A stretch of 20,800 nt of DNA, from positions 1 to 20,800 of the IMG/VR virus record IMGVR_UViG_3300023179_000607. One strand, given 5' to 3'. The notes below the pieces were generated by a model that did no database searches, had not been told where the DNA came from, and worked only from the letters and a program-made list of their open reading frames with translations. The position numbers were made by a program, and so were the translations under genes. The DNA is from a virus. Below, in pieces: positions 5,579 through 20,800 of this stretch. Numbering within the stretch: the stretch's first letter is position 1; every line of letters starts with the position of its first letter.

Positions 5579-6874
5579 TTACATAAGATTCACTACACGA
5601 GTTTTACGATAATACTGATTACGATCTGCGGTGAAAGTATCAGCATCATTAGTGCCCGTTGAAGTTACTACATATGGATTTGCAATTAAACCATAACGAG
5701 TCTTAAAGCCAATTTTTGGCTGGAAGCTATTGGGGTCTATTGCACGAACCATTTGTAATGGAACATAAGGGCAGTAGAAAATACCTGCATCATATGGGCT
5801 TACACCTTTATATCCTACAAGGTAAAACTGATTACTTGCACCCAAGTTGCCTGTATAAGGATCAATGTAAACACGATAACGCCCATTAAGAACACCAGCA
5901 AAAGTGTTGCCTGTGTCATCAACGTTTAGATTAGCATTTGAAGCTAGGGCAGGGGCATAGTCTAAGACACCAGACATTGCCAATGCAGATGCTACGTCTG
6001 CTGAACATACAATGAAGTTACCTTTTCCTCTACGAGTATCTTGAGCAATGTGATTGGCATCACGTTCAATATTAAATAAAAGGCCTTTAAAACGTTCTAC
6101 AGACCAACGACCATTTGAATCAACGTCTAGGTCAAATGTGCCAGCACTTGCTGTAGCTGGTGACCCTGGCTTAGATACTTTATAGATTAAACGTACGATT
6201 TCACGATTAATTTCAAACATAAATTCCTGTGATAGAATATTTGAAAGTTCTGCTTCAGCATCTAGTCCATGGATTGCCTTCAAGTCTTGTGCCAGTTCAA
6301 CAGTATACTCAGCCTTTAATGCACGTGATTTAGCAGTAACTGTTGTTTTATCTATCGCAAAAGACATTTCAGCAAAATCTTGTGCCGCTTCAACTGCAGC
6401 TAAAGTATTTGCAGATCCTGTAGCATATCCGCCTAAAATATTGGCGATTGATCCAGTATGGCCTGTTGCACCAGAAAAACTTGTATTTGCTTCATTGTAC
6501 AAAGCTTCAACACGAGTAGTCGTATTGGAACGAGTGTCACCTGAACCACCATACATTGATCGCATAGCAAAGATCAAGCCTGTTGGGCCTGTCATTGGCT
6601 GAACGCCGCAAATATCATATGCCATTAAATTAGGCATAGCACGGCGAACTAAACCAATCATAATTGGATCATATTTTTGTATTGCTGCAGTATCCTGAGC
6701 AATATTATTAGTGGGTGTCTCAAAAAGAGCTTGACGTTCTTCGCGTAAAGCTCTTTCTTGATTCTCTAAAAGAACAGATGTGACTGCTCTTTTATAGGAA
6801 TCTTTAATTTGTGGAAGCTCCGGATGATCCAGAATTGCTGACCACTTTTGTTGTAAATTTTCGGATAAAAACAT
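5579..6874 (-). CDS. 23: Major capsid protein gp23
   Basis: gp23 forms the hexamers of the T4-type capsid shell. At 431 residues it has the shorter length common in marine T4-like phages (T4: 521). Typical features are the opening NLQQKWSAILDHPELPQI, the segment RRAMPNLMAYDICGVQPMTGPTG cut short here as AMPNLMAYDICGVQPM near residues 79-94, AEYTVELAQDLKAIHGLDAE, and the C-terminal FKTRYGLIANPY. The prohead protease normally removes an N-terminal piece after an L/I-x-E motif; Leu50-Phe-Glu52 is the best candidate, by inference. AAGGAG gives a strong ribosome site. The 35-bp gap before it holds no late promoter octamer, so expression probably relies on the gp22 promoter. A strong terminator follows. 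Confidence 0.96.
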   Translation of the reverse strand: MFLSENLQQKWSAILDHPELPQIKDSYKRAVTSVLLENQERALREERQALFETPTNNIAQDTAAIQKYDPIMIGLVRRAMPNLMAYDICGVQPMTGPTGLIFAMRSMYGGSGDTRSNTTTRVEALYNEANTSFSGATGHTGSIANILGGYATGSANTLAAVEAAQDFAEMSFAIDKTTVTAKSRALKAEYTVELAQDLKAIHGLDAEAELSNILSQEFMFEINREIVRLIYKVSKPGSPATASAGTFDLDVDSNGRWSVERFKGLLFNIERDANHIAQDTRRGKGNFIVCSADVASALAMSGVLDYAPALASNANLNVDDTGNTFAGVLNGRYRVYIDPYTGNLGASNQFYLVGYKGVSPYDAGIFYCPYVPLQMVRAIDPNSFQPKIGFKTRYGLIANPYVVTSTGTNDADTFTADRNQYYRKTRVVNLM

Positions 6875-6909
6875 TTTGTTCTCCTTACGAACCTTTTTTT
6901 ATTTTGTTG

Positions 6910-8028
6910 TTAAGCACGTTTAATTGTTCTTGAAAGTGCTTGCGCATAAGCTGCGACTATACCTGTCGATTCAACTAAAGTATTCTCTGTTACATCTGAT
7001 GTATCTTCAACTAAAGTCTGACTTGTTGTAGCTTCAGTTATTGTAGCTTTGCTTTTTGGAAAATAATTTTCCTTGATCACGCGGACTTTTTCGCTATAAA
7101 TGTCTACATCATCAAAGGCAATGCCTTCTACTAACTTATGCAATTTAGCTGTTTCTGTATCAGCCAAATCTTTTGACAAATCTTCTAAAATAGATTTTCG
7201 AGTTAACTTAATAAGCTCAGAACTCAATTCTACATTGGTATTAATAGCTTCATCAAGTTTTTGTTCTAAATCTTCGGCTTTAGCTTGTAACTCACCAATA
7301 ACATCATATTTCTCTTCAGGAACATCTACGTAATGTTCTTTAAATAAATTTTTAAGTCCACTAATAAAATCTTCAGCTATCTCTGTGCGAAGACCAGATT
7401 CTATAGCCAATTCATTACTTTCCATCCATTGTTCAACAACATAGTTAAGATATGAATCAATTTTATCAACCATACCTTCTCTTAGTTCAGCAAAATCTTC
7501 TTCATATTTAGATTCTAATTGTTCGGCAATCCTTTCCATCTCATGATTTACTCGGGCAATAACTGCAGCCTCAAAAATTGCAGTAGCTTTAGATTTAAAT
7601 TCTTCAGAAAGATCTTCACCAAAAATTGGGGATAAATCTATAGATTCAATTTCTACATCATCGGAATCTTCTTCTTCTTCCATCATAGATTGGTTACCTG
7701 TTGGATTTTTGCCAGTAGCTGATGCAGTCAAATCTTTAACTGTATTAAAATTTGTCGCTTGGCCTGGGCCCTTGCCTTGGGGCGGAGTAGCTTTAGGAGT
7801 AGTAGCAGTTACTTGTGCTACTTGATTTTCATCTTTTTCGCCTTCTCTTGTTTCAAATGAAGCCTTCTCTGACGAACCCTGCATTGGCTGAGAAACATCC
7901 CCTGGATTAGCAGGACTCAAGGTCGAATCCTTTTTAACGGTATCTGCGCCCATTTTATCAGTTTCGTTAAAAGTTGCTTTAGCTTCTACACGCTCAAGCA
8001 ATTCTTTGATTTTACTTTCTACTGACAT
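6910..8028 (-). CDS. 22: Prohead scaffold (assembly core) protein gp22
   Basis: gp22 forms the internal core on which the capsid assembles and is later degraded by the gp21 protease. This 372-residue protein is longer than T4 gp22 (269). Residues ~25-115 are low-complexity and rich in Pro, Gln, Thr and Gly. An acidic patch (MEEEEDSDDVEIESIDLSP) follows, then a long, highly charged helical or coiled-coil stretch (about 150-320) rich in Glu and Lys. The C-terminus ends in AYAQALSRTIKRA, resembling the end of other gp22 proteins. Assignment rests on this composition and on the place between gp21 and gp23. TAGGAGA is a strong ribosome site, and the gene has its own late promoter. Confidence 0.9.
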   Translation of the reverse strand: MSVESKIKELLERVEAKATFNETDKMGADTVKKDSTLSPANPGDVSQPMQGSSEKASFETREGEKDENQVAQVTATTPKATPPQGKGPGQATNFNTVKDLTASATGKNPTGNQSMMEEEEDSDDVEIESIDLSPIFGEDLSEEFKSKATAIFEAAVIARVNHEMERIAEQLESKYEEDFAELREGMVDKIDSYLNYVVEQWMESNELAIESGLRTEIAEDFISGLKNLFKEHYVDVPEEKYDVIGELQAKAEDLEQKLDEAINTNVELSSELIKLTRKSILEDLSKDLADTETAKLHKLVEGIAFDDVDIYSEKVRVIKENYFPKSKATITEATTSQTLVEDTSDVTENTLVESTGIVAAYAQALSRTIKRA

Positions 8029-8059
8029 TTATTGTCTCCTAAATGGAAATTTACTCAAT

Positions 8060-8067
8060 TATTTATA
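8060..8067 (-). promoter_or_regulatory. T4-type late promoter for gp22 and gp23
   Basis: An exact TATAAATA on the minus strand begins one base past the gp21 stop codon and lies 32 bases before the gp22 ATG. It allows more transcript for scaffold and capsid protein than for the upstream protease. Confidence 0.75.
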
Positions 8068-8068
8068 A

Positions 8069-8719
8069 TTATGGTTGCCTAGACAACATATGAACAAATT
8101 TTTCAAAGATTTCAATCTTTACTCGATCTAAATCTTTTCGTTTTGTTTCTTTTATTTGTTTTTTGGTTTCTTCTATTTGTCTAGATTTCCATACGCCATT
8201 TTCGCAAATCCAATCTACGTTCTCCATTATACCTTGAACAAAAGCTTCGGGGGCAGAAGGATCAGCTACTATATCTACGGTAGCTAAATGAAAATCATCT
8301 TGAACTTCCATGACACCATTTTTTTCTTTTAAAGAACCTAAACCTCTAGATGAAACACCAAGCATTACGCCTTCTTCTATAAAATTTTTAGCAATCTTGC
8401 CCATTGGTGTTTCTAAAATTTTAGCTTTACCAATAACGTTAGTACCATCAAATTTTAATTCACTTATCAAATGTGACACTGTGTTAAGATTAATTGTTGG
8501 ATTAGAAGGATGTCCAAGTTCACCAAGTGAGCGTTTTTGGTCTATAAGGCCTTGATATCTTTGTACTTCTTTTTCCATTACAGGCATTGGATAAATTCTT
8601 CCATTGCGATTTTGCTTATTTGCCTGCATAAAGATACCTTCTATGAAGACATTCTTTTTACCATTTGACTCTTCTGTCAAATAATTTAAATCCTGGGTGA
8701 CTTCAGTAATTAGTTTCAT
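8069..8719 (-). CDS. 21: Prohead maturation protease gp21
   Basis: gp21 cleaves capsid and core proteins when the prohead matures. The 216 residues match T4 gp21 in length (212). The serine-protease motifs of the herpes/T4 prohead protease clan are present: His70 in LGELGHPSNP and the serine pair 123-124 in LGVSSRGLG, with TVDIVADPSAPEAF (about 148-160) closing the core. The N-terminal strand (NVFIEGIFMQANKQNRNGR) is also typical. The basic tail after residue ~175 (KSRQIEETKKQIKETKRK) may be trimmed during activation, by inference. The start lies one base past the stop of the preceding gene and has only a weak, A-rich ribosome site, which suggests coupling and modest expression. Confidence 0.93.
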   Translation of the reverse strand: MKLITEVTQDLNYLTEESNGKKNVFIEGIFMQANKQNRNGRIYPMPVMEKEVQRYQGLIDQKRSLGELGHPSNPTINLNTVSHLISELKFDGTNVIGKAKILETPMGKIAKNFIEEGVMLGVSSRGLGSLKEKNGVMEVQDDFHLATVDIVADPSAPEAFVQGIMENVDWICENGVWKSRQIEETKKQIKETKRKDLDRVKIEIFEKFVHMLSRQP

Positions 8720-8720
8720 T

Positions 8721-9125
8721 TTATCTTTTCTGGTAATCTTTAAGTTCTTGGTTATTAGTTTCTTTAAATCCTTGTTTTGTTAATCCTAGATATAAAGTAG
8801 AGGATACTGGCAATGTAACTTTTATATTAGATCCTGCAGATTCATTATCTACGAAACCGAATTGTTGGGAAAATGACCAGTTATCGTTTCCAAATAACTG
8901 CATTACAGTATTAGCATCTCTCGCAATAGTAATAGGTGTGGAGGCGTTACTGTTTGAAAAGACTACTGAATTAATAGTTACTCTTACAGTATTGGCAACA
9001 TCAGTAACAGTTTCGTCAGATAACTTTAGATCAGCAACTAAATCAACGTTAGCAGTACCATCACCAACAAACTTTACAATAGCTTGTTGGCGTACTTTTT
9101 TTATTATAAATTTAGTAATTGCCAT
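8721..9125 (-). CDS. Uncharacterised protein in the prohead cluster, possibly structural
   Basis: I do not recognise a named family. The 134-residue protein appears to be almost all beta strand: ITKFIIKKVRQQAIVKFVG, then repeated alternating hydrophobic segments and a NDNWSFSQQFGF motif near residues 75-86, ending in TLYLGLTKQGFKE. It has no signal peptide or membrane segment. It stands between the small core genes and the gp21 protease, where T4 has only core genes. A beta-rich capsid decoration or core-associated protein is the most reasonable guess. Its start is two bases past the previous stop, with a GAGG-type ribosome site. Confidence 0.7.
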   Translation of the reverse strand: MAITKFIIKKVRQQAIVKFVGDGTANVDLVADLKLSDETVTDVANTVRVTINSVVFSNSNASTPITIARDANTVMQLFGNDNWSFSQQFGFVDNESAGSNIKVTLPVSSTLYLGLTKQGFKETNNQELKDYQKR

Positions 9126-9127
9126 TC

Positions 9128-9319
9128 CTATACCTCATTATTCTTTCGCATAATAGCATACTTGGCACCTAAAGCCATACGAATTCTTTCTTTTTTACTT
9201 TTTCCAGCAAATTTAGGATTATCGCTATGTACAAAATCACTTATCCACTTGCTTGTAGAATCAGAAGCTTTAAGTTTTTCTAGTAAAGCTTCTTCTCTTA
9301 AAAAAGAAAAGTTTTTCAT
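9128..9319 (-). CDS. Small basic phage protein in the position of T4 gp68, function unknown
   Basis: This 63-residue protein carries the motif WISDFVHSDNPKFAGKSKKE followed by RIRMALGAKY. I have seen related short motifs in small proteins of many marine phages, so it is likely a real conserved family. Its location directly after the gp67-like gene matches T4 gene 68 (prohead core), but it is less than half the length of T4 gp68 and I see no direct similarity, so the function is not assigned. Its ATG overlaps the stop of the previous gene (ATGA). Confidence 0.7.
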   Translation of the reverse strand: MKNFSFLREEALLEKLKASDSTSKWISDFVHSDNPKFAGKSKKERIRMALGAKYAIMRKNNEV

Positions 9320-9489
9320 TCTGTTTCCTGTTTACCTGTATAAAGATTACTAGCTAAATCTTGTCTTTTATTATCTAAAGCATCACTAATTTTTACTGCC
9401 ATTAAAGAATTAAATTTTTCCATAGCATCTGATGCTTTATCAGTTAAAATATCATTTACCATATGTTTAATTACTTCAGATTGTTCCAT
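9316..9489 (-). CDS. 67: gp67-like prohead core protein (57 residues)
   Basis: This short gene lies between the portal gene and the 63-residue gene. The product contains AMEKFNSLMAVKISDALDNK followed by RQDLASNLY. This lines up with the core of T4 gp67 as I recall it (ARKLFAEAMAARTIDLIKEE, then KIAIARNFL). T4 gp67 is an internal core protein needed for correct head shape. The position after gp20 is the same as in T4. The protein is shorter than T4 gp67 (about 80 residues) and lacks the long acidic Glu/Asp tail. TAGGA ahead of the ATG overlaps the gp20 stop, and its own stop overlaps the next start as ATGA, so it is embedded in a coupled operon. Confidence 0.75.
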   Translation of the reverse strand: MEQSEVIKHMVNDILTDKASDAMEKFNSLMAVKISDALDNKRQDLASNLYTGKQETE

Positions 9490-9498
9490 ATTATATTC

Positions 9499-11022
9499 CT
9501 ATTGTTGAGTCGCAGTATTATTTATTGTTTGAGATGAGGATGTTTCTGATTGTATTTCTCCCTCAATTCTTCGTATATCATCATCATTCATTTTTAATAT
9601 ATTTTTCATAACAAATAATTTACTAAAATAAGTACCAACAAAGGGTGTTACCTGATTTAAAATATCCATTCTATTACGAAGATTTTCTGCTTCCTTCATT
9701 TCATAGAAATATTGATCCTGCGCATATTTTACTTGAAGTTTTTCACTTATAACATTCCAATCCGCATCAGTGATAACACCTTTAAGAATCAAATTAGTTT
9801 TTAAAACATCTAAAAATAATTCATTAAATTTTTTACGTAATCTTGAAACAAATTTAGCAAATTTTAATTCATCTCTAGTAATTTCTTCGGCTCTACCAAA
9901 TTGAAAACCATTTTGAGGTTGCATTCTAGATACTGGCACATTTAACGATTGATATACCTTTTGTTGAAAATAATTTATATCTTCAATTTGTCCTAAATTT
10001 TCTCCGCCAGGCAAAGTTGTAATTTCTGTTCCTCTGCCCCCCTCTCTACGAGGAAGCCAAAAATCCTCAAGCATTGATAAAAATTTTCTATCATCTCTTA
10101 TTTCACCAGTATTGGAATCATACACAATTTTATTTCTATATCTGGCCATCACATCTTTAAGATATTGCTCGGCCTTTATTTTAGGTAAATTGCCAACATC
10201 TATATAAAATATTCTTCTTTCTGGTGCTCTCGAAATTCTGTAAATAACTAGAGCATCTTCCATCATTTTAAGTTGATTAATGGGTTTCACAGCTTTATGC
10301 ATGTAACCTAAAACTACATTCTTTTCTAAATCCATTAATCCAGAAGGTACAAAAGTAATAGAATCTAAAGATAATTTTATTACTTGATTGGATACAGACG
10401 CCATAGAATATTGAGGATTATAATTTATACCTTTATCATTGTAGATAAAAAATTCCTCAATTTTCTTTATTAAATCTACGCCTGTTTTTTGATCCTTTTG
10501 TTTATCTATTTTTCTAATTTTTCTTATTTTCCTAGGATCAATATTTCTTAATTCTAAAATACCTCGTTTTGGATTCGTAATATCAATAACTTTTTGAAAA
10601 TATATTCTTCCATCAATATACCATTGCCTAAACCAATCATAACCTTTATAATTAAAGTTTAGTAATCTAAGTACTTCTTGAAATTCTATTTTAATAGAAT
10701 CTTTTATATTTTCAGGCAAGTCTGAATTATCTAAATTAATTGTTACAGGATCTTCGTTATCTGTGGCAGCTATTGCCTCAGTTACTATTTCGTCAACTGC
10801 AGTTGAAGCATCAGCATACAAAGCTGCTTCTCTATATCTTGTAATAAGCTCTGCCTCAGATTTAGAGGATGCATCTAAATCTACGTATGTACCATAATAC
10901 CCTGCACCTGATACTGTTGCAGCTCCATCCTCAGATTCGGGATTTATAAAGGATTGAGCTTTTGTTCCTAAATCGTTTACTTCATTACGAGAAATTGTAA
11001 AACCAAATAACGAAAGTGCCAT
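9499..11022 (-). CDS. 20: Portal vertex protein gp20
   Basis: gp20 forms the dodecameric portal through which DNA enters and leaves the head and on which the prohead nucleates. The 507 residues are close to T4 (524). Typical segments are YREAALYADASTAVDEIVTE near 63-82, GRIYFQKVIDITNPKRGILE, ISRAPERRIFYIDVGNLPK in the middle, LPRREGGRGTEITTLPGG, and the C-terminal MQPQNGFQFGRAEEITRDEL. The last ~30 residues are Ser/Thr/Gln-rich and likely disordered. It begins six bases after gp19 with a weak GGAA-type ribosome site. No late promoter precedes it directly, so it should be read from the gp18 promoter. Confidence 0.95.
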   Translation of the reverse strand: MALSLFGFTISRNEVNDLGTKAQSFINPESEDGAATVSGAGYYGTYVDLDASSKSEAELITRYREAALYADASTAVDEIVTEAIAATDNEDPVTINLDNSDLPENIKDSIKIEFQEVLRLLNFNYKGYDWFRQWYIDGRIYFQKVIDITNPKRGILELRNIDPRKIRKIRKIDKQKDQKTGVDLIKKIEEFFIYNDKGINYNPQYSMASVSNQVIKLSLDSITFVPSGLMDLEKNVVLGYMHKAVKPINQLKMMEDALVIYRISRAPERRIFYIDVGNLPKIKAEQYLKDVMARYRNKIVYDSNTGEIRDDRKFLSMLEDFWLPRREGGRGTEITTLPGGENLGQIEDINYFQQKVYQSLNVPVSRMQPQNGFQFGRAEEITRDELKFAKFVSRLRKKFNELFLDVLKTNLILKGVITDADWNVISEKLQVKYAQDQYFYEMKEAENLRNRMDILNQVTPFVGTYFSKLFVMKNILKMNDDDIRRIEGEIQSETSSSQTINNTATQQ

Positions 11023-11028
11023 ATTTTA

Positions 11029-11610
11029 TTATGTTCCAAAAGGTGTAGTGGCAATATCAATTATAGAATTTAATGGATTTGCGGATACTGTAAAAGTTTG
11101 ATATTCAAACGTCACTGTAAATTCAGAAATAGTATCGTTGGCTCCAAAATTTAATCCAACAGGACTTAAAATTGTTGGAAATGCCCCTTGAAGTATATAC
11201 TGTTTAAGAACATTGCCATTTCTATCTAGTTGATAAACAAACATATCTCTTTGGTATTCTGCAGGATTCAATTTACCAGTTTTATTAATAAGATTATCCA
11301 TTCCATTTATCCATTGCTCAATAGCACTTCGAATAGAAAAATCAGAATCATTTATAACATTTATAGTAAATCCGGCAAAAGTTCTATCACCTGAAAGTTT
11401 AACATCTCTACCTCTATAAAATACATTTACTAGTCCCATTGTTTGCCCGGGAAGTTCTGCTGCTGTAACAAGAAAGGGAGCTCTAGCTACTGCTGCAGCT
11501 GCCCCCGTAACATACGTAGGGAAACTTAGCTGAACTGCGAATTGATTTGGTCTAGCGCCCCCATTAGTAAGCGCAGACTTAAATCTATCTACATTAAATG
11601 CGGTTGTCAT
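11029..11610 (-). CDS. 19: Tail tube protein gp19
   Basis: gp19 polymerises into the rigid inner tail tube. The 193 residues are slightly longer than T4 gp19 (163). Visible features are NVDRFKSALTNGGARPNQFA at the start, AAELPGQTMG near residue 50, FYRGRDVKLSGDRTFAGFTI, the Trp in IEQWINGMDN, and a final strand block ISEFTVTFEYQTFTV. GGGAG precedes the ATG. It follows the sheath gene by 16 bases, as in T4, and so is made from the same transcript. Confidence 0.94.
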   Translation of the reverse strand: MTTAFNVDRFKSALTNGGARPNQFAVQLSFPTYVTGAAAAVARAPFLVTAAELPGQTMGLVNVFYRGRDVKLSGDRTFAGFTINVINDSDFSIRSAIEQWINGMDNLINKTGKLNPAEYQRDMFVYQLDRNGNVLKQYILQGAFPTILSPVGLNFGANDTISEFTVTFEYQTFTVSANPLNSIIDIATTPFGT

Positions 11611-11626
11611 CCATTACTCCCTTAAT

Positions 11627-13279
11627 TTATGCGCCTATTTCTTCAAAAGAAATTCCTGATCTAGTAGCAATAAAATTCAATTGAACAAAATTAATTGATC
11701 TTGCAGGTTTAATATAGATATCTGCTACAAATTCGTTTCGATCTATTACCTCACCCGTATTGTTAGTTTCATCACAAACTACTCTAAAGTCAGTAATACC
11801 TCGGCGACCTTGTACATCTCTTAAATAAGGTTCAACTAGATTTCTGAATTGTGCTCTAGTAAAAGCATCATTAAATTCGAACAATTGAAATTTAGCTGCT
11901 GTTGCTATTGCTTTTTCCAACACAATAAACAATCTACGGACGTTAATTCTATCAAAAGCGCTTGGTCTTGCTAATAAAGTTTTGTCGCCAAATAATACAG
12001 TTCCTTGTCCAGGAAAAGTTACTACAGGATTTACACCTGCTCTATATAAGGTATCTCTGTCAGATTTAGAGGGCGAATATGCTAGTTTTACAACATTCTT
12101 TATTTGCCCTCTATTAAATCCTGCAGGGGAAAACCAAGGATCAGCAACAAAATCTGATCTTGCAGTTAATCCTGCTATATCTCCGTTTAATGGTATCCAA
12201 CGATAGACATCATTATATCTATCATACTGATATTTGTAACCAGAATCCAAAACTGCATAAGATGAACTTGGTAGACTATTTCTAAAATTTACTACATTGG
12301 TGACAGCTGTGGTATTATTAACAGTATCTACAAAACCAGGAGACGAAAAAACCATACAATCTTTTCTTACTTCTGCAACATTATTAATTACAAATGAAAT
12401 ATTGGCTGCATCAAGATCTCCAGTTGGTATTAAATTTACATCATACAATTCATCATTAGATAAAACTGTATATCCATTTAAAATAGCAGCAATATTGGAT
12501 GAAAAATCAGATCCCCCATTTAATGTCATAGTAATATTAGTTGCTAAATTGGCAAATGTAGTACCTGCAGAAACATTTCCCCAATTATTTGTGTTGGCTG
12601 TATGATTAGCCCATCTTATATAATTAGATGTATTATTAATGACTGTTTTGTAATAATTTGAAGATCCATCCAATGCTTTAGCATCAGATGCTTTAGATAA
12701 AAATGAAAATTTTTCTAAAACAGTATCGGCCGCACCAGTCCAAGTACCATTTGAATCTAATACTATAATATGTAATTCATCATACTTGCCGCCTAAAATG
12801 TTTGTATAACTAGATGTATTGGGCGATGTTGAACTAAACTGAGTTTTGTATGCCCACGCAACAAAAGTATTAGCATCTGCCATAGATACTTTTATAGAAT
12901 TACCAAGTACTCCCGGATATCTTGCTACCCATTCACCTGCATTAGTAAAGGAAACTGTATCATAATGATCATCATTTCTTACTAGGACTGCTGAATTTGA
13001 TGCTGCGTTTTTACTACTACCATTTATTGCTCTTATTACTTTTAAATTATTACCATAAGATAAAAAATTAGCAGCAGTAAAAAAAGAAATATACGTATTT
13101 GTGGTTGGTTTACCAAAAACCGAAACTAGTGTTTTTTCTGAATCTATTTGAGTTACCTGATCAACAGGACCCCATTGGAAATTCCCTACAAATCCACCGG
13201 CAGTTGTGGAAACGCTTGGAACACTAAGTGTGTCATCTCTTTCAGTTACTAAAACACCCGGTGAAAGCTGAAATGCCAT
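11627..13279 (-). CDS. 18: Tail sheath protein gp18
   Basis: gp18 forms the contractile sheath around the tail tube. This 550-residue version is shorter than T4 gp18 (659), as is common in marine relatives. The start LSPGVLVTERDDT, followed by GGFVGNFQWGPVDQVTQI and VSVFGKPTT, is the usual sheath N-terminus. The C-terminal conserved domain carries RLFIVLEKAIATAAKFQLFE, NDAFTRAQFRNLVEPYLRD, QGRRGITDFRVVCDE and the closing VQLNFIATRSGISFEEI. The Asn/Ser/Thr-rich middle (about 100-330) is the variable surface domain. It has a strong AGGAGA ribosome site and its own late promoter, giving a ~46-base leader. Confidence 0.96.
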   Translation of the reverse strand: MAFQLSPGVLVTERDDTLSVPSVSTTAGGFVGNFQWGPVDQVTQIDSEKTLVSVFGKPTTNTYISFFTAANFLSYGNNLKVIRAINGSSKNAASNSAVLVRNDDHYDTVSFTNAGEWVARYPGVLGNSIKVSMADANTFVAWAYKTQFSSTSPNTSSYTNILGGKYDELHIIVLDSNGTWTGAADTVLEKFSFLSKASDAKALDGSSNYYKTVINNTSNYIRWANHTANTNNWGNVSAGTTFANLATNITMTLNGGSDFSSNIAAILNGYTVLSNDELYDVNLIPTGDLDAANISFVINNVAEVRKDCMVFSSPGFVDTVNNTTAVTNVVNFRNSLPSSSYAVLDSGYKYQYDRYNDVYRWIPLNGDIAGLTARSDFVADPWFSPAGFNRGQIKNVVKLAYSPSKSDRDTLYRAGVNPVVTFPGQGTVLFGDKTLLARPSAFDRINVRRLFIVLEKAIATAAKFQLFEFNDAFTRAQFRNLVEPYLRDVQGRRGITDFRVVCDETNNTGEVIDRNEFVADIYIKPARSINFVQLNFIATRSGISFEEIGA

Positions 13280-13328
13280 CTTAATCTCCTAAAGATTTTT
13301 GGAAGTCGTCATGACAATTTGATTACTA

Positions 13329-13344
13329 ATTATTTATAAATAAT
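13329..13344 (-). promoter_or_regulatory. T4-type late promoter for gp18-gp19-gp20, inside a 16-bp palindrome
   Basis: The minus strand has TATAAATA at 13331-13338, 52 bases before the sheath gene. The element is part of a perfect 16-bp palindrome, so the plus strand also has TATAAATA at 13335-13342, facing into the end of gp17. The gene-oriented copy is the likely functional promoter. Confidence 0.75.
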
Positions 13345-13349
13345 GGCTT

Positions 13350-15047
13350 TTAGACATTTTCAAGCATTTTTCTTCGCATCTTTTCCATCGCTTCGGTTGG
13401 ATTCAGATTAAACCAAATATCATCATTTATTTTTTCTGGCCTTACTTCTTCAGGAATACCTGTATTAACTATACCAAACGGAGTAAGATTTTCCTCAATT
13501 TGTTTAGTCTGTTGCTCATACAAAGCTAATCTAAGATTAGAATTAGTTAATTCCTTAAAATATAATTCATTAGTTGCCCAAGAAAATATAATTAATGACA
13601 TTACTAAATCATCATGATATCCTTCATCAGCTTTGAAAGACCCCCTCTGTTCAGTAAACGTGGAAATCTCAGATATAATGTCTTTATCGGTTATTATCAA
13701 CTTTTGATTTTCTACTAAATTTTTAAACAAAGAACAGCCAAGTCTTTTAACTTGTGTAGTTGTCCTTAATCCTAGAGTTGTACCAGTGCCAAATCCTCCT
13801 GACAAAAACTGCCTAGATTTACCACTAGCTGTTGCAAAAATATTTTCATATTCTAAATCAGTATATAAAGAATCAACTACTTGTTGTCCTATATCATTAG
13901 TTTCTACTAAACAAAAAGCATCATTATAGTCTCTTGCAACTTTATATAGTATTGTTGCATATAAAATGGGACTTATTTTATTATTTCTATATTTGGCAAC
14001 TATTCTAAATGGATATTCTGTCACATCTATAACAGTAAATGCAGAATAATCGCCACCCACTCCTCTAGATGTATCAGCAGAAATAACATAAGTATGCGGT
14101 TTTCTTACTATTTCGCCTTTATCATTAAATAACCCAATAATTGGTTCCTCAATAACATCTAATCCTTCATTTTCAAAGATATAGGGCAACGGTGACATTC
14201 TTGAAATAGCATCTGGAGAAATTAGTGTATTTGATGATCCCAAAAATTTACATAGTACTTCTTGATTAAATTTTAGTTCACCCAATAATGCTTTTTGTTG
14301 GTTAGCCCATTCCTCTGTTCTGCCTGGTATTTTCCAATAAGGTACAAATAAAGATTTAAATCCATTTATATTTTGTTCGGCGTCATTCCAAAATTTCCAA
14401 AAATGATTATAACCAAAGGGAGTGGAAGTAAGAAGAATTTTTGTAGTTTCACCTGCAGAGATCGTTGGATAAACTGAAGTGAAAAATTCTTCAGCAACAT
14501 TGTTAGGAATAATTGCTGCTTCGTCAATATATAACCAATTCACAGATTTACCTCGAATACCAGACATACTAGTTGCAGCAGTAAAAATTCTTGACCCGTT
14601 TTCTAATTCTATATCACCTTTATTAAAAGTCTTTACACCTTGTTGCATCCATAAAGGCAAAGCTTCATACATTACCTGATATCTATGCAGTACCTCTCTT
14701 GCAGCTGAGGATTTATTAGCCAATATTGCAACAGTTTTTGATTCTTGAAATAAGGTATACCAAAGAATACAAGCAGCAGCAGTAATAGTTTTTCCTTGTT
14801 GTCTGCCTTCCATAAGTATAACTTTACGATTATTTAGTATTACTTCCACTTTTTCTTTTTGACAATCATAAAGTTTAAAATGCACAAGGCCATTATCTAA
14901 TGAAACAATCATACAATAAGTTTCAATAAAGTATATAGGATTTTGAGAACACTTTATTATTTCCTGTACTTGTTCTGGGGAATAGTTGATAACTGTTCCT
15001 ATCTGTTTAAGATTAGGGTTACCATTATAAGCTATTCGTTTATTCAT
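13350..15047 (-). CDS. 17: Terminase large subunit gp17 (packaging ATPase and nuclease)
   Basis: gp17 powers DNA translocation into the prohead and cuts the concatemer. The 565 residues are near the T4 length (610). ATPase motifs: Walker A GRQQGKT at 81-87, Walker B WLYIDEAA at 171-178, and the coupling segment LLTSTPFG near 205-212. The RNase H-like nuclease has its acidic residues at Asp325 (VISADTSRG), Glu382 (VETNDIG) and Asp479/480 (YHDDLVMS), the positions expected from T4. The gene overlaps gp16 by 8 bases and has no clear ribosome site, only an A-rich stretch, so it is probably coupled to gp16 translation. Confidence 0.96.
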   Translation of the reverse strand: MNKRIAYNGNPNLKQIGTVINYSPEQVQEIIKCSQNPIYFIETYCMIVSLDNGLVHFKLYDCQKEKVEVILNNRKVILMEGRQQGKTITAAACILWYTLFQESKTVAILANKSSAAREVLHRYQVMYEALPLWMQQGVKTFNKGDIELENGSRIFTAATSMSGIRGKSVNWLYIDEAAIIPNNVAEEFFTSVYPTISAGETTKILLTSTPFGYNHFWKFWNDAEQNINGFKSLFVPYWKIPGRTEEWANQQKALLGELKFNQEVLCKFLGSSNTLISPDAISRMSPLPYIFENEGLDVIEEPIIGLFNDKGEIVRKPHTYVISADTSRGVGGDYSAFTVIDVTEYPFRIVAKYRNNKISPILYATILYKVARDYNDAFCLVETNDIGQQVVDSLYTDLEYENIFATASGKSRQFLSGGFGTGTTLGLRTTTQVKRLGCSLFKNLVENQKLIITDKDIISEISTFTEQRGSFKADEGYHDDLVMSLIIFSWATNELYFKELTNSNLRLALYEQQTKQIEENLTPFGIVNTGIPEEVRPEKINDDIWFNLNPTEAMEKMRRKMLENV

Positions 15048-15438
15048 TATTTTTTTTAAGTAGTTTCATTAATTCTGCGGTAGATCCTGCAAAAACTACA
15101 TTATTTTGAGTACCTATAGAAGGTTTATCATTATCTACAGATAATTCTTTTACTTGCTTTTGTAAAACCATAAGATCTTTTGCTACATCAGACATAGTTT
15201 TTATTAATTGGCCAGCAACTTCATATGTTCTTGGATGTTCAGAATTTTTAGCCAAATTTATCATTTCATCTAGGGTATCTTCGCCCTTAAAAATTAATTT
15301 ACGCAAAGTATTTCTAGCCAATTGATAGTCATCTTCTTTATCCATTTCAATTTTAGTTGAAGGCAAAACTAAAGGCATTTCATCGCTTTTAGTTTTTTCA
15401 ATGTTAAATAATTTATTTAATTCAGGAATACTACTCAT
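15040..15438 (-). CDS. 16: Terminase small subunit gp16
   Basis: gp16 recognises DNA and regulates gp17. This 132-residue protein is a little shorter than T4 gp16 (164). It is mostly helical, with DYQLARNTLRKLIFKGEDTL and a long helix through AGQLIKTMSDVAKDLMVLQK, resembling the central coiled-coil of gp16. Assignment rests on this pattern and the position directly before gp17. Its ATG overlaps the gp15 stop in a TAATG. It ends in a run of eight A just before the gp17 start. Confidence 0.88.
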   Translation of the reverse strand: MSSIPELNKLFNIEKTKSDEMPLVLPSTKIEMDKEDDYQLARNTLRKLIFKGEDTLDEMINLAKNSEHPRTYEVAGQLIKTMSDVAKDLMVLQKQVKELSVDNDKPSIGTQNNVVFAGSTAELMKLLKKNNE

Positions 15439-16187
15439 TAGAAATCTTCAAAAGATTCGTTAAAATTAAAATCATCCTCAGGTGTTGCTGTTAATGGATC
15501 AACTTGTACCGTATAAGTTTGTTGTTTCTGAGTAAGAGCTTTATCTGTAAATGTATCGGCTATTACTCGTTTGATTACCCCTTGTTTGTTTATAGGACCA
15601 TAAAAATTTAATTTCATCAAAAAATTAAATGTCCAAATAATAGATCTTCTTTGTCTCAAATCTCCCTCATATTGATCATCATATATGATATTCTCAAGTA
15701 AAATTGGAAGATCGTTTTTTATATTTAAAGTGGATATTGCTTTTAATGTTAAGTTATAATCTGGATTAAAATATGGTAATATTTGTTCTACTATTTGCAA
15801 TCCATCATCTTGATTTTTAGAATATACATATAAACTTATTTCTATATTGTAAGGCGTTGGTGCATATTGAGCTAAAGCAGTGGTAGAAGAATTTATAGCA
15901 CGATTTTGTTGAATTGGACTAATTTTTCTATTAGGATCATATCGTAGCCCCATCATTTCAAAAGACATTCTAGGCAAATACACTTCTATATTTTGATCAT
16001 CTATATTTGGTTGCTGTGTTATTCTTTGAATAAACTTTTGTTTTGGGGCATAAGATAAAGGTACTCTTATAGTTTGAACTATATTTCCATTTTCATCCAA
16101 TCTATCTATGGTAATATTATTAAACATATTACCAAAAGCAACAATAGATTTTCTAATAGTCCCCCAATAAAATTTTTGATCTAACAT
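15438..16187 (-). CDS. 15: Tail terminator / sheath stabiliser gp15
   Basis: gp15 caps the finished tail, holds the last sheath ring, and joins the tail to the neck. The 249-residue protein is close to T4 gp15 (272). The start LDQKFYWGTIRKSIVAFGNM with NITIDRLDENGN and VPLSYAPKQKFIQRI is typical of gp15 in T4-like phages, as is MSFEMMGLRYDPNRK. The final ~30 residues are acidic and Thr/Gln-rich. It overlaps gp14 by one base (TAATG). Confidence 0.92.
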   Translation of the reverse strand: MLDQKFYWGTIRKSIVAFGNMFNNITIDRLDENGNIVQTIRVPLSYAPKQKFIQRITQQPNIDDQNIEVYLPRMSFEMMGLRYDPNRKISPIQQNRAINSSTTALAQYAPTPYNIEISLYVYSKNQDDGLQIVEQILPYFNPDYNLTLKAISTLNIKNDLPILLENIIYDDQYEGDLRQRRSIIWTFNFLMKLNFYGPINKQGVIKRVIADTFTDKALTQKQQTYTVQVDPLTATPEDDFNFNESFEDF

Positions 16188-16936
16188 TATCTGTATATCT
16201 CGCCGAAGGGATTTCTTTCAGTAAAATCTAAAATATCGTTGATATTTGCATCAAAATCATCATTGTCTGCTGCTTTATCTTTTACTACGGTTGAATAATC
16301 TTCCAACATTAATGAAGATTCTGAATAGTATTCCAATAATAATTCACTACCATCTTCTTTAAGGAATTTATATAACTCAAGATCAAGTCTTTTATCATCA
16401 AGTAATTCATCAATTTCTTCAATCCCGGTATCAAATCTTTCTTCAGAAAATTGAAATATTTCACAATCCATTTTAAATACGTAGAGTTTACCTAACTGAA
16501 AAAAAGGATCCTGTCCACTTACTTTACGTATTTCAAAAAAAGATTTAGTTAAAGGAAAATAAATAAGATCGCCTTCAGCAGGTCTTGTTTCAATTAAAGT
16601 ATTACCAAATCTGCCAGCGACTTCAGCCCATCTTCTTCTAGCTACAACAAATCTCGCAGTGTCTCTTAACTCTAAACCAAACTTAGTTAATAACTCACCA
16701 TCACCTTCAAACCCCATAACATTTTCCAAATACATTTCTATGGGGTAGGCATAGTCAAATTTTTGCAGTGGATCCTCACCCAAAATAATATCTTCGTTAA
16801 CCGTTTTTCTAGGTATATAATAAGTTTCAAAACCATAAATTTTCATACTTTCGATTATTAAATCTTCAATCAAAAGCTGCTCAGATCTGCGTCCCATTGG
16901 GATGCCAGATTGAAAATATGGATTAACTGTAGTCAT
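16187..16936 (-). CDS. 14: Neck protein gp14
   Basis: gp14 joins gp13 to form the neck that closes the packaged head. At 249 residues it matches T4 gp14 (256). Characteristic segments are NPYFQSGIPMGRRSEQLLIE at the start, MKIYGFETYYIPRK, and EDPLQKFDYAYPIEMYLENV near residues 54-73, then VVARRRWAEV and GDLIYFPLTKSFFEIRKV. The C-terminal third is strongly acidic, ending ILDFTERNPFGEIYR. A 59-base gap separates it from gp13; I see no late octamer or terminator in it. Confidence 0.93.
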   Translation of the reverse strand: MTTVNPYFQSGIPMGRRSEQLLIEDLIIESMKIYGFETYYIPRKTVNEDIILGEDPLQKFDYAYPIEMYLENVMGFEGDGELLTKFGLELRDTARFVVARRRWAEVAGRFGNTLIETRPAEGDLIYFPLTKSFFEIRKVSGQDPFFQLGKLYVFKMDCEIFQFSEERFDTGIEEIDELLDDKRLDLELYKFLKEDGSELLLEYYSESSLMLEDYSTVVKDKAADNDDFDANINDILDFTERNPFGEIYR

Positions 16937-16995
16937 TCTTTTCTATTGACTTTCTATAGACCAGATGTTATTATTGCTATAAGCCTGAATGATAA

Positions 16996-17739
16996 TTAGC
17001 CCACAAACATATCTACTGGCAATTCAAATCTAGATTGCATTTCATCCTCAATAGCCTTTATTTCTCCTATTGCTTCTTGATAAATTGTATCTCCATTAAG
17101 CATAACTCCGCCAGGAAGTTGTAATCCGGAAAACTTCTTAAGATTTACTCCCCATTGTCTTTTAATTAATGCTGTGGTATACTTTTTTAGAAAATAGTCA
17201 TCATACACATCAGTATACGTATTTGGATCAAGTATTCTATAGCATTCAACAATTGCATAATCTTCCGCTGCTATATCTGCTTCCCAATCCCAATCTATGT
17301 ATAAACGATTAATATGTCTATTAAATCTAACAGGTTTAGTGCCCACTAATAATTGATTTATAAGTTCAAGTTCCATTTTAACTTGAGTATAATAAATTAG
17401 ATCAGTAGACATAAGACTATACAAATCATTTATAAGTATTTGATATCTAATATCAAATATATTCATTCCCCTAGTTCTGTTAGTTAAAGGAAGAATTCTA
17501 TTTACACCTACGATTAAATCACTGGTGCTTATATACTGATTTGTAATATCTTCAGCAGTAAATTGATGCTTAAGATATACTAATTCAACGGCATCATAAT
17601 GATATTCTCTATAGAATTGAAATGATTCATCGATACGATCTTCGACTTGATCGTCATCTACGTTTATTTCAATTACTGGATGCCCTAGAGCTCTTAAGCA
17701 ATAATCTTTAAGCCCTTCTCTGGTAGTTACTTTGGCCAT
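16996..17739 (-). CDS. 13: Neck protein gp13
   Basis: gp13 binds the portal side of the neck with gp14. The 247 residues are shorter than T4 gp13 (309) but usual for marine relatives. The start TTREGLKDYCLRALGHPVIE, followed by VDDDQVEDRIDESFQFY, is distinctive for this family. Further support comes from DIRYQILINDLYSL and RQWGVNLKKFSGLQLPGGV near residue 190-210. The start overlaps the previous stop in a TAATG. Confidence 0.93.
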   Translation of the reverse strand: MAKVTTREGLKDYCLRALGHPVIEINVDDDQVEDRIDESFQFYREYHYDAVELVYLKHQFTAEDITNQYISTSDLIVGVNRILPLTNRTRGMNIFDIRYQILINDLYSLMSTDLIYYTQVKMELELINQLLVGTKPVRFNRHINRLYIDWDWEADIAAEDYAIVECYRILDPNTYTDVYDDYFLKKYTTALIKRQWGVNLKKFSGLQLPGGVMLNGDTIYQEAIGEIKAIEDEMQSRFELPVDMFVG

Positions 17740-18068
17740 TATTTTGTTACCTCTGGAAATACTGTTATAATGCCTTCTTGTATTCTATATACTACATTAG
17801 TATTAAATAACTCTACATCATAAACATATCTACCTATTTTGAGATTAGCAGTTTGAAAAGCAGATAAGGATATATTTACATTTCCGCCACTATTACTATT
17901 AATAATAGTAGTAAAGGTAATAGCATTTGCGCTATAATATGATCTTCTCATACTGGCTCTTGGAGTAAGCCCAGTTATATCTATTACATTTTTAGTTTTA
18001 TCTTTATAAAGTATAAAATCTGAAAATGTAGTTCCCTGATCGATAGCTAAATTTTTTGTTGCTGCCAT
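17739..18068 (-). CDS. Small beta-sandwich structural protein, BppU/fibre-attachment type
   Basis: This 109-residue protein has a pattern seen in many small phage structural proteins: an opening IDQGTTFSDFILYKD, the phrase DITGLTPRASMRRSYYS, a middle segment NVNISLSAFQTANLKIGRYV, then YDVEL and a closing IQEGIITVFPEVT. The pattern recalls the N-terminal domain of BppU-like baseplate proteins and similar proteins next to fibre genes. It lies one base past the end of the large fibre gene, so a role in fibre attachment or tail surface is likely, by inference. It overlaps gp13 by one base. Confidence 0.7.
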   Translation of the reverse strand: MAATKNLAIDQGTTFSDFILYKDKTKNVIDITGLTPRASMRRSYYSANAITFTTIINSNSGGNVNISLSAFQTANLKIGRYVYDVELFNTNVVYRIQEGIITVFPEVTK

Positions 18069-18069
18069 T

Positions 18070-20800
18070 TTAACCGCAATAATAGATTACTGCTATTTGT
18101 TTGACTTGTTCGGGTGAGGAAAAGATAACTGCCTCTCTGGCCTTGCCCACTGTGTAGTTTCTAATGATGTCGTCGGATTGTTTCATTCCTTTTCCGGGAA
18201 TAGAGGATGTGGTAATTAAATCGCCTATTTCTATATTACCATTTTCTCCGCAGACATTTAATTGCCCTTCACCTATTGAATTAATATTGATATACTTACT
18301 ATTTAAATGTATTTCTGCGATATTGGGATCTAGAGTAGGAATAGAATTAGTTGAAGCTGGTATTATTGTCTCAGTAATAGTTTCGCCTGTAATCATGTCT
18401 ATTCTTTCTGCAGTTACTGCTTCAATTTCTTGTATAGTATACACTGTCACTGCTGCAGGAATCGTATTTGGATTACTTTGATCTATAGTATGAGTATAAA
18501 CACCAATTACAGATTTTTGATTGGGCGAAGAGGATAAAGCAACCTTCGTTAATGTATCACTTATGGATTTTTTAGCCACTACTTCTATATCAACCATGAT
18601 ATCGCCTGGTTCGGGTTCTATATCTAATCCTAAATAAGCATCATGTGATGCTGTAAAGGGGCCCAAAGTACCTGCTAACGTATAAATGGAGTGCCCGCCA
18701 GCTGTTGCTATGAATACTCCCGAACAAGCACCACCTGAAGAATTATAATGAGCTATTCCTGCTCCGTATCTACCTAATCCCGTGGTTCCTGTATCCACGG
18801 CTAAAACTGCCTCAGCCAATTTAGTTGTTGACGATGGCCATCTAACAGTTGATCTTAATCCTTCTCTGCAGGCAGAACTACAAAGAGAGATATCTGTTAG
18901 AACATTATATATGCCATTAGATATTTGAGTAGCGAATCTTCCTCCATATGAATTAGTCCCATCAAATAAACCTGAATAACCATACGATCTTGCAAAAGAA
19001 GATGTATTTAATGCAGCACCGTATGCACCATACATAAATGTATTTGTTTCTGTTCCTTGTGCACCGATAAAACATGTAAGTCCACTTCCTGAACTATTAT
19101 ATTGTACTGCAGTAATTCCTACAGAACAATCACCAAATATTCCTAATGATTTCCATAATCCATTATAACTTGAACCCAAAGATTTACCATAAGCAAAAGG
19201 CACACCTGATGCAGTAGCGCCTGATCTATTTGCAGCAACAAGTGTGAACGCGCACGCAGATGAATCAAATGCGCCAGTAAATTTATTATTATTACTATTT
19301 GTAAAAGTAGCTTGGGCTGGAAAATTGCATCCGCCTATACAAATAGAAGCGCCAGTACCCAATGCAAAACTTCCATCTGCTGTACATGCAGTTCCTGAAG
19401 TTATTTTGTCAGCAGTAAGTGTTCCAGCGCAAATTCTATCTCCATTTATAGATCCGGCCGTCATTTTATCCGTAGTAATAGCACCTGCTTGTATTTTTGA
19501 CGCATTCACTGAATCTGCTGCTAATTGATTGGCTGAAATTGTGCCATTTACAACTAAACCTCCATTAATGTAAGCTGACACTGTCGACCAAGCTGAACCA
19601 GTCCAAAATCTAGTATCAGAAAAATTAGTAGAAGTATTAAATAATGTTACTTCATCTCTAATTACCTTCGTTAGCCCTAATTCTGTAATAGCAGTATCTG
19701 CTGCAGCATCTGACCAAGTAGAAGAAGACACTGCCTTTGCTATTTTATAATTTCCCCTTGCACCAGCTGCACCATCGGCGCCCAACTGAGTAAGTTTTGC
19801 GGGAGCTGACCAAGTGCCTGCCGTCACAGTAGAATTTATATTTGTGGTAAAAAACTGAAAAAACGAAAACCACGTGGGTGTTGTTGCTGCCGAAGGCTGG
19901 GATATTGACCAACCAGCCGGAGCAGTTAAAGTATTTGTACTAAAATTAAATGATCCGGTACCTGCTGTAGGAGTACTCGGTGCGGCAGACTGTTGAAGAT
20001 ATACTACACCTAAAAAATATGTTTTGCCGTCAGATCTTTGTTCCGCAAAAACAATAGGTGTATTGTAAGTACCCCCTGTCACTGTTCCTGTGCCCACAAA
20101 AGTGTAAGTTGCAACGTAGGTTGGGGTGGTGGTTGTAGCTGGAGGGGATATTGACCAACCAGCTGGGGGAGTTAAAGTATTTGTACTAAAATTATAAGAG
20201 CCACCCGATGGCGCACTAGGAGCTGTGGCACTTTGTTGGTATATTGCTGCGGTAAATGACGACGACCCTGTAGCACCATTTGATAAAAATTGTGTCCAAG
20301 TACCATTATTTTGTTTTATATAAGTAATATTATCAGTGGTATTCTTATATACAGAATTAATAGGCGCACTACCGCCGTATGCTGCATCTGCAGCTGCATT
20401 GCTAGCAAAATTGCCTATAAATTGTATTGCACTAGAATTCGATTGTGTAACTACGTTAGCAAGTGTTCGCAAAGTTCCAGTATTATCAGAAACTACAATA
20501 GCATTGGATAATATTACTGAAGATCCAGACCCCGCGCCAAGTAATAGATTTCCTGTTGCATCTCTTATACTTAATCCTCTACTATCAATCATGGATGCAG
20601 TTATAGTATTCGCAGTAATATGTTTAGATGTTATAGCATTTGCTGCTAAAGAATCGGTAGTTACAGAATTAGATTGTAAAGCATTAGCATAAATAGAATT
20701 GGCTGCTAATTGTACAGCAGTTATAGAATTGGCTGCTATTGTTGCTGCTGTAACTGAGTTTGCTTGTAAAGCATTAGCATAAACAGAATTAGCTGCTAAT
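18070..20800 (-). CDS. Large modular tail fibre / adhesin, partial, 5' end outside window
   Basis: The frame is open from the right edge to the stop at 18070, giving at least 909 residues. The ATG at 20592 is internal: 69 codons upstream of it continue the same repeat. Numbering from that Met, the order is: stalk repeats of about ten residues (pattern AANSI/V-x-A-x-x-L); a linker (1-115); two copies of an 82-residue module (about 119-200 and 201-282) each with NFSTNTL, PAGWSIS and TTPT; a short collagen-like GADGAAGARG; a lambda gpJ-like stretch INGGLVVNGTISANQLAADS with further ADKIT/AG steps (344-400); a Gly/Ser/Cys-rich head (400-600); and a C-terminal domain (~600-840) with GEGQLNVCGENGNIEIGDLI and IPGKGMKQ. 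It should be the host-contact fibre. There is no signal peptide in view. Confidence 0.85.
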   Translation of the reverse strand, partial: LAANSVYANALQANSVTAATIAANSITAVQLAANSIYANALQSNSVTTDSLAANAITSKHITANTITASMIDSRGLSIRDATGNLLLGAGSGSSVILSNAIVVSDNTGTLRTLANVVTQSNSSAIQFIGNFASNAAADAAYGGSAPINSVYKNTTDNITYIKQNNGTWTQFLSNGATGSSSFTAAIYQQSATAPSAPSGGSYNFSTNTLTPPAGWSISPPATTTTPTYVATYTFVGTGTVTGGTYNTPIVFAEQRSDGKTYFLGVVYLQQSAAPSTPTAGTGSFNFSTNTLTAPAGWSISQPSAATTPTWFSFFQFFTTNINSTVTAGTWSAPAKLTQLGADGAAGARGNYKIAKAVSSSTWSDAAADTAITELGLTKVIRDEVTLFNTSTNFSDTRFWTGSAWSTVSAYINGGLVVNGTISANQLAADSVNASKIQAGAITTDKMTAGSINGDRICAGTLTADKITSGTACTADGSFALGTGASICIGGCNFPAQATFTNSNNNKFTGAFDSSACAFTLVAANRSGATASGVPFAYGKSLGSSYNGLWKSLGIFGDCSVGITAVQYNSSGSGLTCFIGAQGTETNTFMYGAYGAALNTSSFARSYGYSGLFDGTNSYGGRFATQISNGIYNVLTDISLCSSACREGLRSTVRWPSSTTKLAEAVLAVDTGTTGLGRYGAGIAHYNSSGGACSGVFIATAGGHSIYTLAGTLGPFTASHDAYLGLDIEPEPGDIMVDIEVVAKKSISDTLTKVALSSSPNQKSVIGVYTHTIDQSNPNTIPAAVTVYTIQEIEAVTAERIDMITGETITETIIPASTNSIPTLDPNIAEIHLNSKYININSIGEGQLNVCGENGNIEIGDLITTSSIPGKGMKQSDDIIRNYTVGKAREAVIFSSPEQVKQIAVIYYCG
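19899..20199 (-). repeat. Tandem 246-bp module in the tail fibre gene (two copies)
   Basis: A segment beginning at 19899 recurs at 20145, 246 bp away (82 codons), with high DNA identity over about 50 bp. The encoded copies share NFSTNTL-x-PPAGWSIS-type wording. This interval spans the conserved segments; the full modules extend over roughly 19740-20250. Confidence 0.75.
20593..20800 (-). repeat. Stalk repeat of the tail fibre, about 30 bp per unit with a 90-bp higher period
   Basis: The encoded ten-residue units follow LAANSVYANA, LQANSVTAAT, IAANSITAVQ, LAANSIYANA, LQSNSVTTDS. A 37-bp DNA segment at 20674-20710 recurs at 20764-20800 with two mismatches, exactly 90 bp (three units) apart. 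The repeat continues past the window edge. Such repeats build elongated triple-stranded fibre shafts. Confidence 0.85.

Follow-up and report, generated by a model that had tools for sequence, protein, structure and literature searches.

The DNA analysed here, hereafter the window, is a viral stretch of 20,800 nucleotides (positions 1 to 20,800 of IMG/VR record IMGVR_UViG_3300023179_000607), and one of its ends is taken up by a long fibre gene. The features with which we are concerned, in window coordinates, are the following.

18070-20799, minus strand: tail-fibre ORF of 909 amino acids, from the ORF list and matches to tail-fibre PHROGs; open at the window edge, its 5' end missing
19477-19941, minus strand: PB4_spike-like domain (residues 287-441 of the fibre protein, P0001), from PF24168 and PDB chain 7zlv
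18700-19257, minus strand: variable part of the fibre in front of the module (the identity test was run on this stretch), at random-level identity between most relatives
18073-18657, minus strand: C-terminal module (F715-G909 of P0001) of predicted beta-tulip fold, from alignments A1/A2, the model and the fold matches
18643-18657, minus strand: F-T-A-S-H motif (F715-H719), whose T and H are retained throughout the family; putative cut before T716
18214-18273, minus strand: GEGQLNVCGENGNIEIGDLI core, from the pattern search and invariant alignment columns
17739-18068, minus strand: ORF of 109 amino acids directly downstream of the fibre gene (phrog_3304, E 4.9e-19; phrog_1084, E 6.2e-24)

The PB4_spike-like part of the fibre matched PF24168 at E 3.7e-8 (33.2 bits, for a cut-off of 27) and the T5 pb4 chain 7zlv at E 1.2e-8, and other parts of the protein matched tail-fibre PHROGs. 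Seven member proteins were scanned whole, and three of them (the window fibre, L003 and L010) carry the PB4_spike domain. Ten further ORFs, scanned against the PHROGs, point to a T4-like phage with a contractile tail; they match head proteins (major head protein, scaffold, portal, head-closure and adaptor proteins), both terminase subunits and the tail sheath with its stabiliser. This T4-like cluster, neck included (5582-18068), adjoins a fibre with a spike domain of the T5 siphophage type, i.e., a mosaic fibre. A second IMG/VR contig (L002, 59,675 bases) matches 7,728 bases of the window at 99.96% identity and stops at the same position, so that the start of the fibre is absent from both. Both assemblies of this virus break off in ANSI-type repeats of the fibre gene (20590-20800 in the window, the start of L002), and this shared stop may reflect either an assembly break or a variable region.

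The module spans the C-terminal 195 residues of the window fibre and runs to the stop codon. The original prediction had singled out 18070-18830 as a distinctive C-terminal domain on the basis of five short strings, all of which are found in the minus-strand ORF ending at 18070. There is indeed a conserved module in that stretch, but it begins at FTASH (F715, base 18657), so that the first ca. 57 residues (18658-18830) belong to the variable fibre sequence. Conservation of the module is far above chance: 32 columns were invariant in a 28-row alignment, a tblastn search with the last 209 amino acids against Colwellia phage 9A gave E 6e-31, and the window has a single match to a 60-base pattern of the GEG...GDxI core, against zero matches in 100 shuffles. 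Its C-terminal position is constant too, the domain match reaching the last residue in all 112 matching ORFs (111 loci, with the window's own and some near-identical ORFs counted in); the total was 124 domain matches, the remaining 12 being extra ones inside these same ORFs.

Searched against Pfam, PHROG and NCBIfam, the window module matched no model, and searches of PDB sequences with it and with three profiles gave nothing or chance-level matches (inhibin, 0.32; superoxide dismutase, 0.049). With 72 members as queries, 17 Pfam families appeared at E<=1, each in at most two members, and 37 PHROGs, each in at most three members among the matches listed (best 25); both sets were taken as noise. 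The best PHROG match was phrog_15817 (E 2.4e-4), in one member. In the open PMC literature, a name for the module was absent from titles and abstract openings among the matches listed, and the only match to the five motif strings was to Neurospora work; the module is conserved and apparently unnamed.

Relatives of the module are encoded by 288 of 309 pattern-matched stretches in IMG/VR, 80 of which were kept and examined, and by 14 of 22 such stretches among 84,980 bacterial and archaeal species genomes. Seven of these 14 loci are from Pseudoalteromonas and the rest from Endozoicomonas, Undibacterium, Paraburkholderia and MAGs (one Flavobacteriaceae). Plasmid records (72,556) gave a single match, in Rhizobium rhizoryzae, whose 41-kb plasmid NZ_CP049252.1, possibly a phage-plasmid, encodes the module at 36599-37120 with 36.8% identity. 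Two entries of Colwellia phage 9A were the sole matches at E<=10 among 50,697 phage records. The C-terminus of central tail fibre J of this phage is a direct sequence relative, with 37% identity along the whole module, although the protein is a lambda-type J protein of another phage and is annotated just as tail protein or central tail fiber J. One contig (L044, 3-9386) has two successive fibre genes, with the module at the end of each.

The pattern GEGxxWV...GDxI led to 65 more stretches in IMG/VR, which we call the W-branch. All 65 ORFs bearing this motif match the profile of the first branch, the weakest of them, a fragment of 74 residues, at E 4.8e-7. As they had been chosen by a motif within the domain, the comparison of the two branch alignments with each other is the fuller test; by hhalign it gave E 1.7e-40 and a probability of 100% over 161 columns that begin shortly before FTG and reach the last residue. 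Judged by their sequences, the W-branch and the branch of the window (N) are one family. Three W-branch domains run against family models gave weak matches, none above the curated cut-off. Some W-branch members (L128, L144, L155, L159, L161, L163 and L168) extend ca. 40-130 residues beyond the usual length after the GDYI core.

As for the viruses that carry this branch, Terminase_6N was above its curated cut-off in 8 of 25 of the larger W-branch contigs and below it in one, the other 16 having no match. A tail-sheath protein lies near the fibre in three of five loci whose neighbours were scanned (L135, E 5e-80; L140, 1e-16; L131, 1e-12), so at least part of the W-branch is found in contractile-tailed phages. 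On the 133-kb W-branch contig L176 two neighbours of the fibre had no PHROG match, so that its identity as a phage hangs on the terminase (E 3.8e-21). The giant-virus capsid family PF04451 had no match in any of 25 W-branch records, in a search whose control likewise gave none, so that this absence carries no weight.

Giant viruses did appear when predicted structures were searched. The best match of the L176 W model was to Pyramimonas orientalis virus (E 2.5e-20, 45% identity over 186 columns, TM 0.81) and the second to Tetraselmis virus 1 (E 3.9e-16, 32% identity, TM 0.78). The window model retrieved Colwellia phage 9A first, Tetraselmis virus 1 second and Pyramimonas orientalis virus third, at 23% identity for each algal virus; these algal-virus identities are the structure-search tool's own figures, on predicted proteins. 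Both algal viruses belong to the Nucleocytoviricota (Varidnaviria). Profile and structure searches taken together, one family occurs in tailed phages (from metagenomes) and in giant algal viruses, which bears out the earlier suggestion of a module common to very different viruses. The notion of phage-like fibre chaperones in algal viruses has already been published, for another domain family, since passages of PMC12906663 report phage-type tail-fibre genes and an endosialidase chaperone in viruses of Ostreococcus.

The sequence in front of the module behaves very differently from the module itself. In 923 pairs with 50-70% identical modules, drawn from 66 non-redundant N-branch members (modules <90% identical), the 185 amino acids upstream had a median identity of 0.23-0.24; the identity of shuffled upstream sequence had a mean of 0.22 and a 95th percentile of 0.26. 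The median rises to 0.40 at 70-80% module identity (7 pairs) and to 0.58 at 80-90% (4 pairs), i.e., close relatives share both parts. The pair L053 and L066 has modules that are 75% identical behind upstream regions that are 24% identical. On these comparisons the module is a swappable unit, independent of the fibre sequence upstream of it. Collagen-like Gly-X-Y runs, which form three-chain helices, are present in 29 of 111 and 9 of 66 carrier ORFs, and in L170 (near 12594-13139) such a repeat stops one residue before the FTGQH motif.

This variability bears on the possibility that the module serves as the fibre's receptor-binding tip. Receptor-binding tips are usually the most variable part, whereas the module is conserved while the preceding fibre sequence varies freely, and it is common to viruses of bacteria and of algae. 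A tip would be in keeping with its distal place in the protein, of which the parts nearer the N-terminus are similar to tail-tip and tail-fibre proteins, and phi29 gp8.5, which contains the same fold, is tied to host adhesion in passages of PMC7602432. We nevertheless regard this role as quite improbable.

The 109-aa ORF resembles the T5 L-shaped tail-fibre assembly protein and is probably a separate accessory factor. A relative of it adjoins the fibre in 37 of 109 N-branch loci; none was detected in the other 72, so the module seems to be independent of this ORF. With a one-sequence query and flanks of varying length, no relative was found in the 65 W-branch loci either, and an obligate partnership with the module was rejected on these counts.

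Predicted models of the module as a monomer had a mean pLDDT of 92.8 for the window and 86.0 for the W-branch. Against solved structures, Foldseek gave no E below 0.001 for the window model, and the top matches were coherent, comprising head-decoration or capsid-shell chains and phi29 gp12 (3SUC, E 0.010; 3GQH, E 0.018, prob 0.96). By VIA-align the same model matched HFTV1 8qsy_JJ (Z 13.4, 113 aligned), Sf11 9ocb_K (Z 11.9), the C-terminal fragment of phi29 gp12 in 3GQH (692-854; Z 11.5, rmsd 4.6, 136 aligned) and the longer, uncut 3SUC (Z 11.1, rmsd 2.9, 105 aligned). The order was the same for the W model (HFTV1, Z 11.7; Sf11, Z 10.8; 3GQH, Z 10.6, rmsd 3.1, 109 aligned), so that the HFTV1 and Sf11 capsid-shell chains outscore gp12 with both. 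The phi29 gp8.5 base 6QYY reached Z 9.2 and 8.1 with the two branch models, lambda gpD 1c5e had a low Z (4.6 with the window model, 5.4 with the W model), and no ICA chain was among the matches listed for either model. As modelled, the module has a beta-tulip fold. The original prediction of a fibre chaperone is supported in so far as this fold matches the C-terminal assembly fragment of phi29 gp12, but not by any match to the Peptidase_G2 model. With the giant-virus matches and the gp12 fold in hand, the relatives are not confined to close kin and the predicted fold is not unlike that of fibre chaperones.

Beta-tulip head-decoration proteins (lambda gpD, TW1 gp56, phi29 gp8.5) share the fold predicted for the module, and lambda gpD is already linked to the phi29 appendage 3SUC in passages of a review (PMC7602432). 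On the models, the fold by itself would suit an assembly domain and a decoration protein alike. Proteins of the latter kind, however, are separate capsid-bound proteins or the N-terminal base of a fibre, whereas the module is C-terminal in a fibre, and this site, together with the point at which the domain starts, favours an assembly domain. The structural matches to the gp8.5 base and to head-decoration proteins would also suit an anchor holding the C-terminus of the fibre to the capsid, like the beta-tulip base of the phi29 gp8.5 head fibres. Such an anchor is highly improbable, given that members bear domains of the tail-tip type (PB4_spike, in three of the seven scanned whole) and tail-fibre PHROG matches, and that the gp8.5 base is N-terminal according to passages of PMC7602432.

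The start of the module can be compared with the cut point of gp12. With 3GQH, the alignment opens at the motif Thr (22 in the window model, 16 in the W model), opposite gp12 residue 692, which is the first of the 3GQH chain; against the longer 3SUC the window model again begins with 22 opposite 692, but the W model aligns with 3SUC from residue 13 opposite 686, so the register around the motif can be fixed only to within some residues. The gp12* of the virion ends at 691, according to passages of PMC6542822. T-x-x-H is kept in all 137 distinct members (177 ORFs minus 12 too short and 28 duplicates) with an expression widened after exceptions were seen. In the first count, which omitted five ORFs missed by its core expression, FT[GAX]xH was present in 125 of 132 distinct members, the other seven having HTSAH (6) or VTGAH (1). 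Seven of the 65 W-branch ORFs are without this motif, six being fragments (74-172 residues) without that part and one, L169, having an undetermined residue inside it. In ten aligned gp12-type domains (A3) it is D-x-x-E (Asp692, Glu695) that is invariant, i.e., Asp/Glu at the same spacing as Thr/His in the module family.

The likeness to phi29 gp12 (Peptidase_G2) thus consists of the C-terminal place in a fibre or spike protein, the predicted fold and a domain that begins at or close to the gp12 cut. The Peptidase_G2 model PF11962, which recovers gp12 (E 2.6e-97) and matches a Bacillus subtilis control, had no match in 72 members (E<=1) or in 25 records. Against the ten gp12-type domains, hhalign gave E 0.31 (A2), 0.008 (A4) and 0.037 (merged), with probabilities of 0.2%, 4.9% and 1.4%, and a profile relation on this basis is not convincing; the weak match with A4 does run colinear (GxxGQ..V...GDxI), and there may be a remote tie. 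A search of IMG/VR for gp12-type domains found only three close phi29 relatives.

The Peptidase_S74/ICA domains (endoNF, T5 pb1, MyRF) offer an analogy, being C-terminal modules behind a trimeric fibre; in T5 pb1 and MyRF the cut is made before a hydroxyl residue. That residue is Ser, whereas the module family has Thr, and Peptidase_S74 had no Pfam match in 72 members (E<=1). Passages of PMC8326128 describe a Ser-Lys dyad at the ICA cleavage site, with Lys five residues after Ser, and place the MyRF cut at P586-S587; in passages of PMC4690869 T5 pb1 is cut at Thr1263-Ser1264. No Lys was found at +5 after the motif Thr among the rows listed for A2 (24 of 72) and A4 (35 of 35). Since the searches established no sequence relation to a known autoprotease, we class the module with C-terminal fibre-assembly modules and not with Peptidase_G2.

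This would also fit a trimerising cap that is never cleaved, which forms the permanent far end of the mature fibre and keeps the three chains together much like a foldon. The module lacks the gp12-type Asp/Glu as well, and its fold is that of decoration proteins that are trimeric (trimers according to passages of PMC7602432). Nevertheless, to have T and H conserved right where the module begins, at or near the equivalent of the gp12 cut, exceeds what a cap would seem to need, and we consider a permanent cap possible but rather unlikely.

Our own reading, held with slightly more belief than doubt, is that the module is a C-terminal trimerisation or assembly domain (an intramolecular chaperone) of a homotrimeric fibre, which subsequently cleaves itself off. 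It probably helps three fibre chains to assemble, and self-cleavage may take place before the motif Thr. In the sequence of events that we infer, the module would be translated last and three copies would meet as a beta-tulip trimer, setting the register of the three chains so that the exchangeable fibre region upstream could fold. Self-cleavage would then occur between F and T (the F|T bond) in the F-T-[G/A]-x-H motif, Thr acting as the attacking residue and His as its helper.

Much more tentatively, we propose that this is an undescribed family of self-cleaving fibre chaperones, with a Thr/His pair in contrast to Asp/Glu (Peptidase_G2) or Ser/Lys (Peptidase_S74), that has been exchanged between the Duplodnaviria (tailed phages) and the Varidnaviria (giant algal viruses). 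If true, transfer of the module has carried fibre assembly across realms. A profile is now available for hundreds of fibre proteins from the environment with ends unmatched by the family models tried, and the start of the module marks where their receptor-variable sequence ends. It also gives rise to a sharp prediction, a cut before the motif Thr. The distribution points to one interchangeable assembly part with which both tailed phages and giant algal viruses build their fibres.
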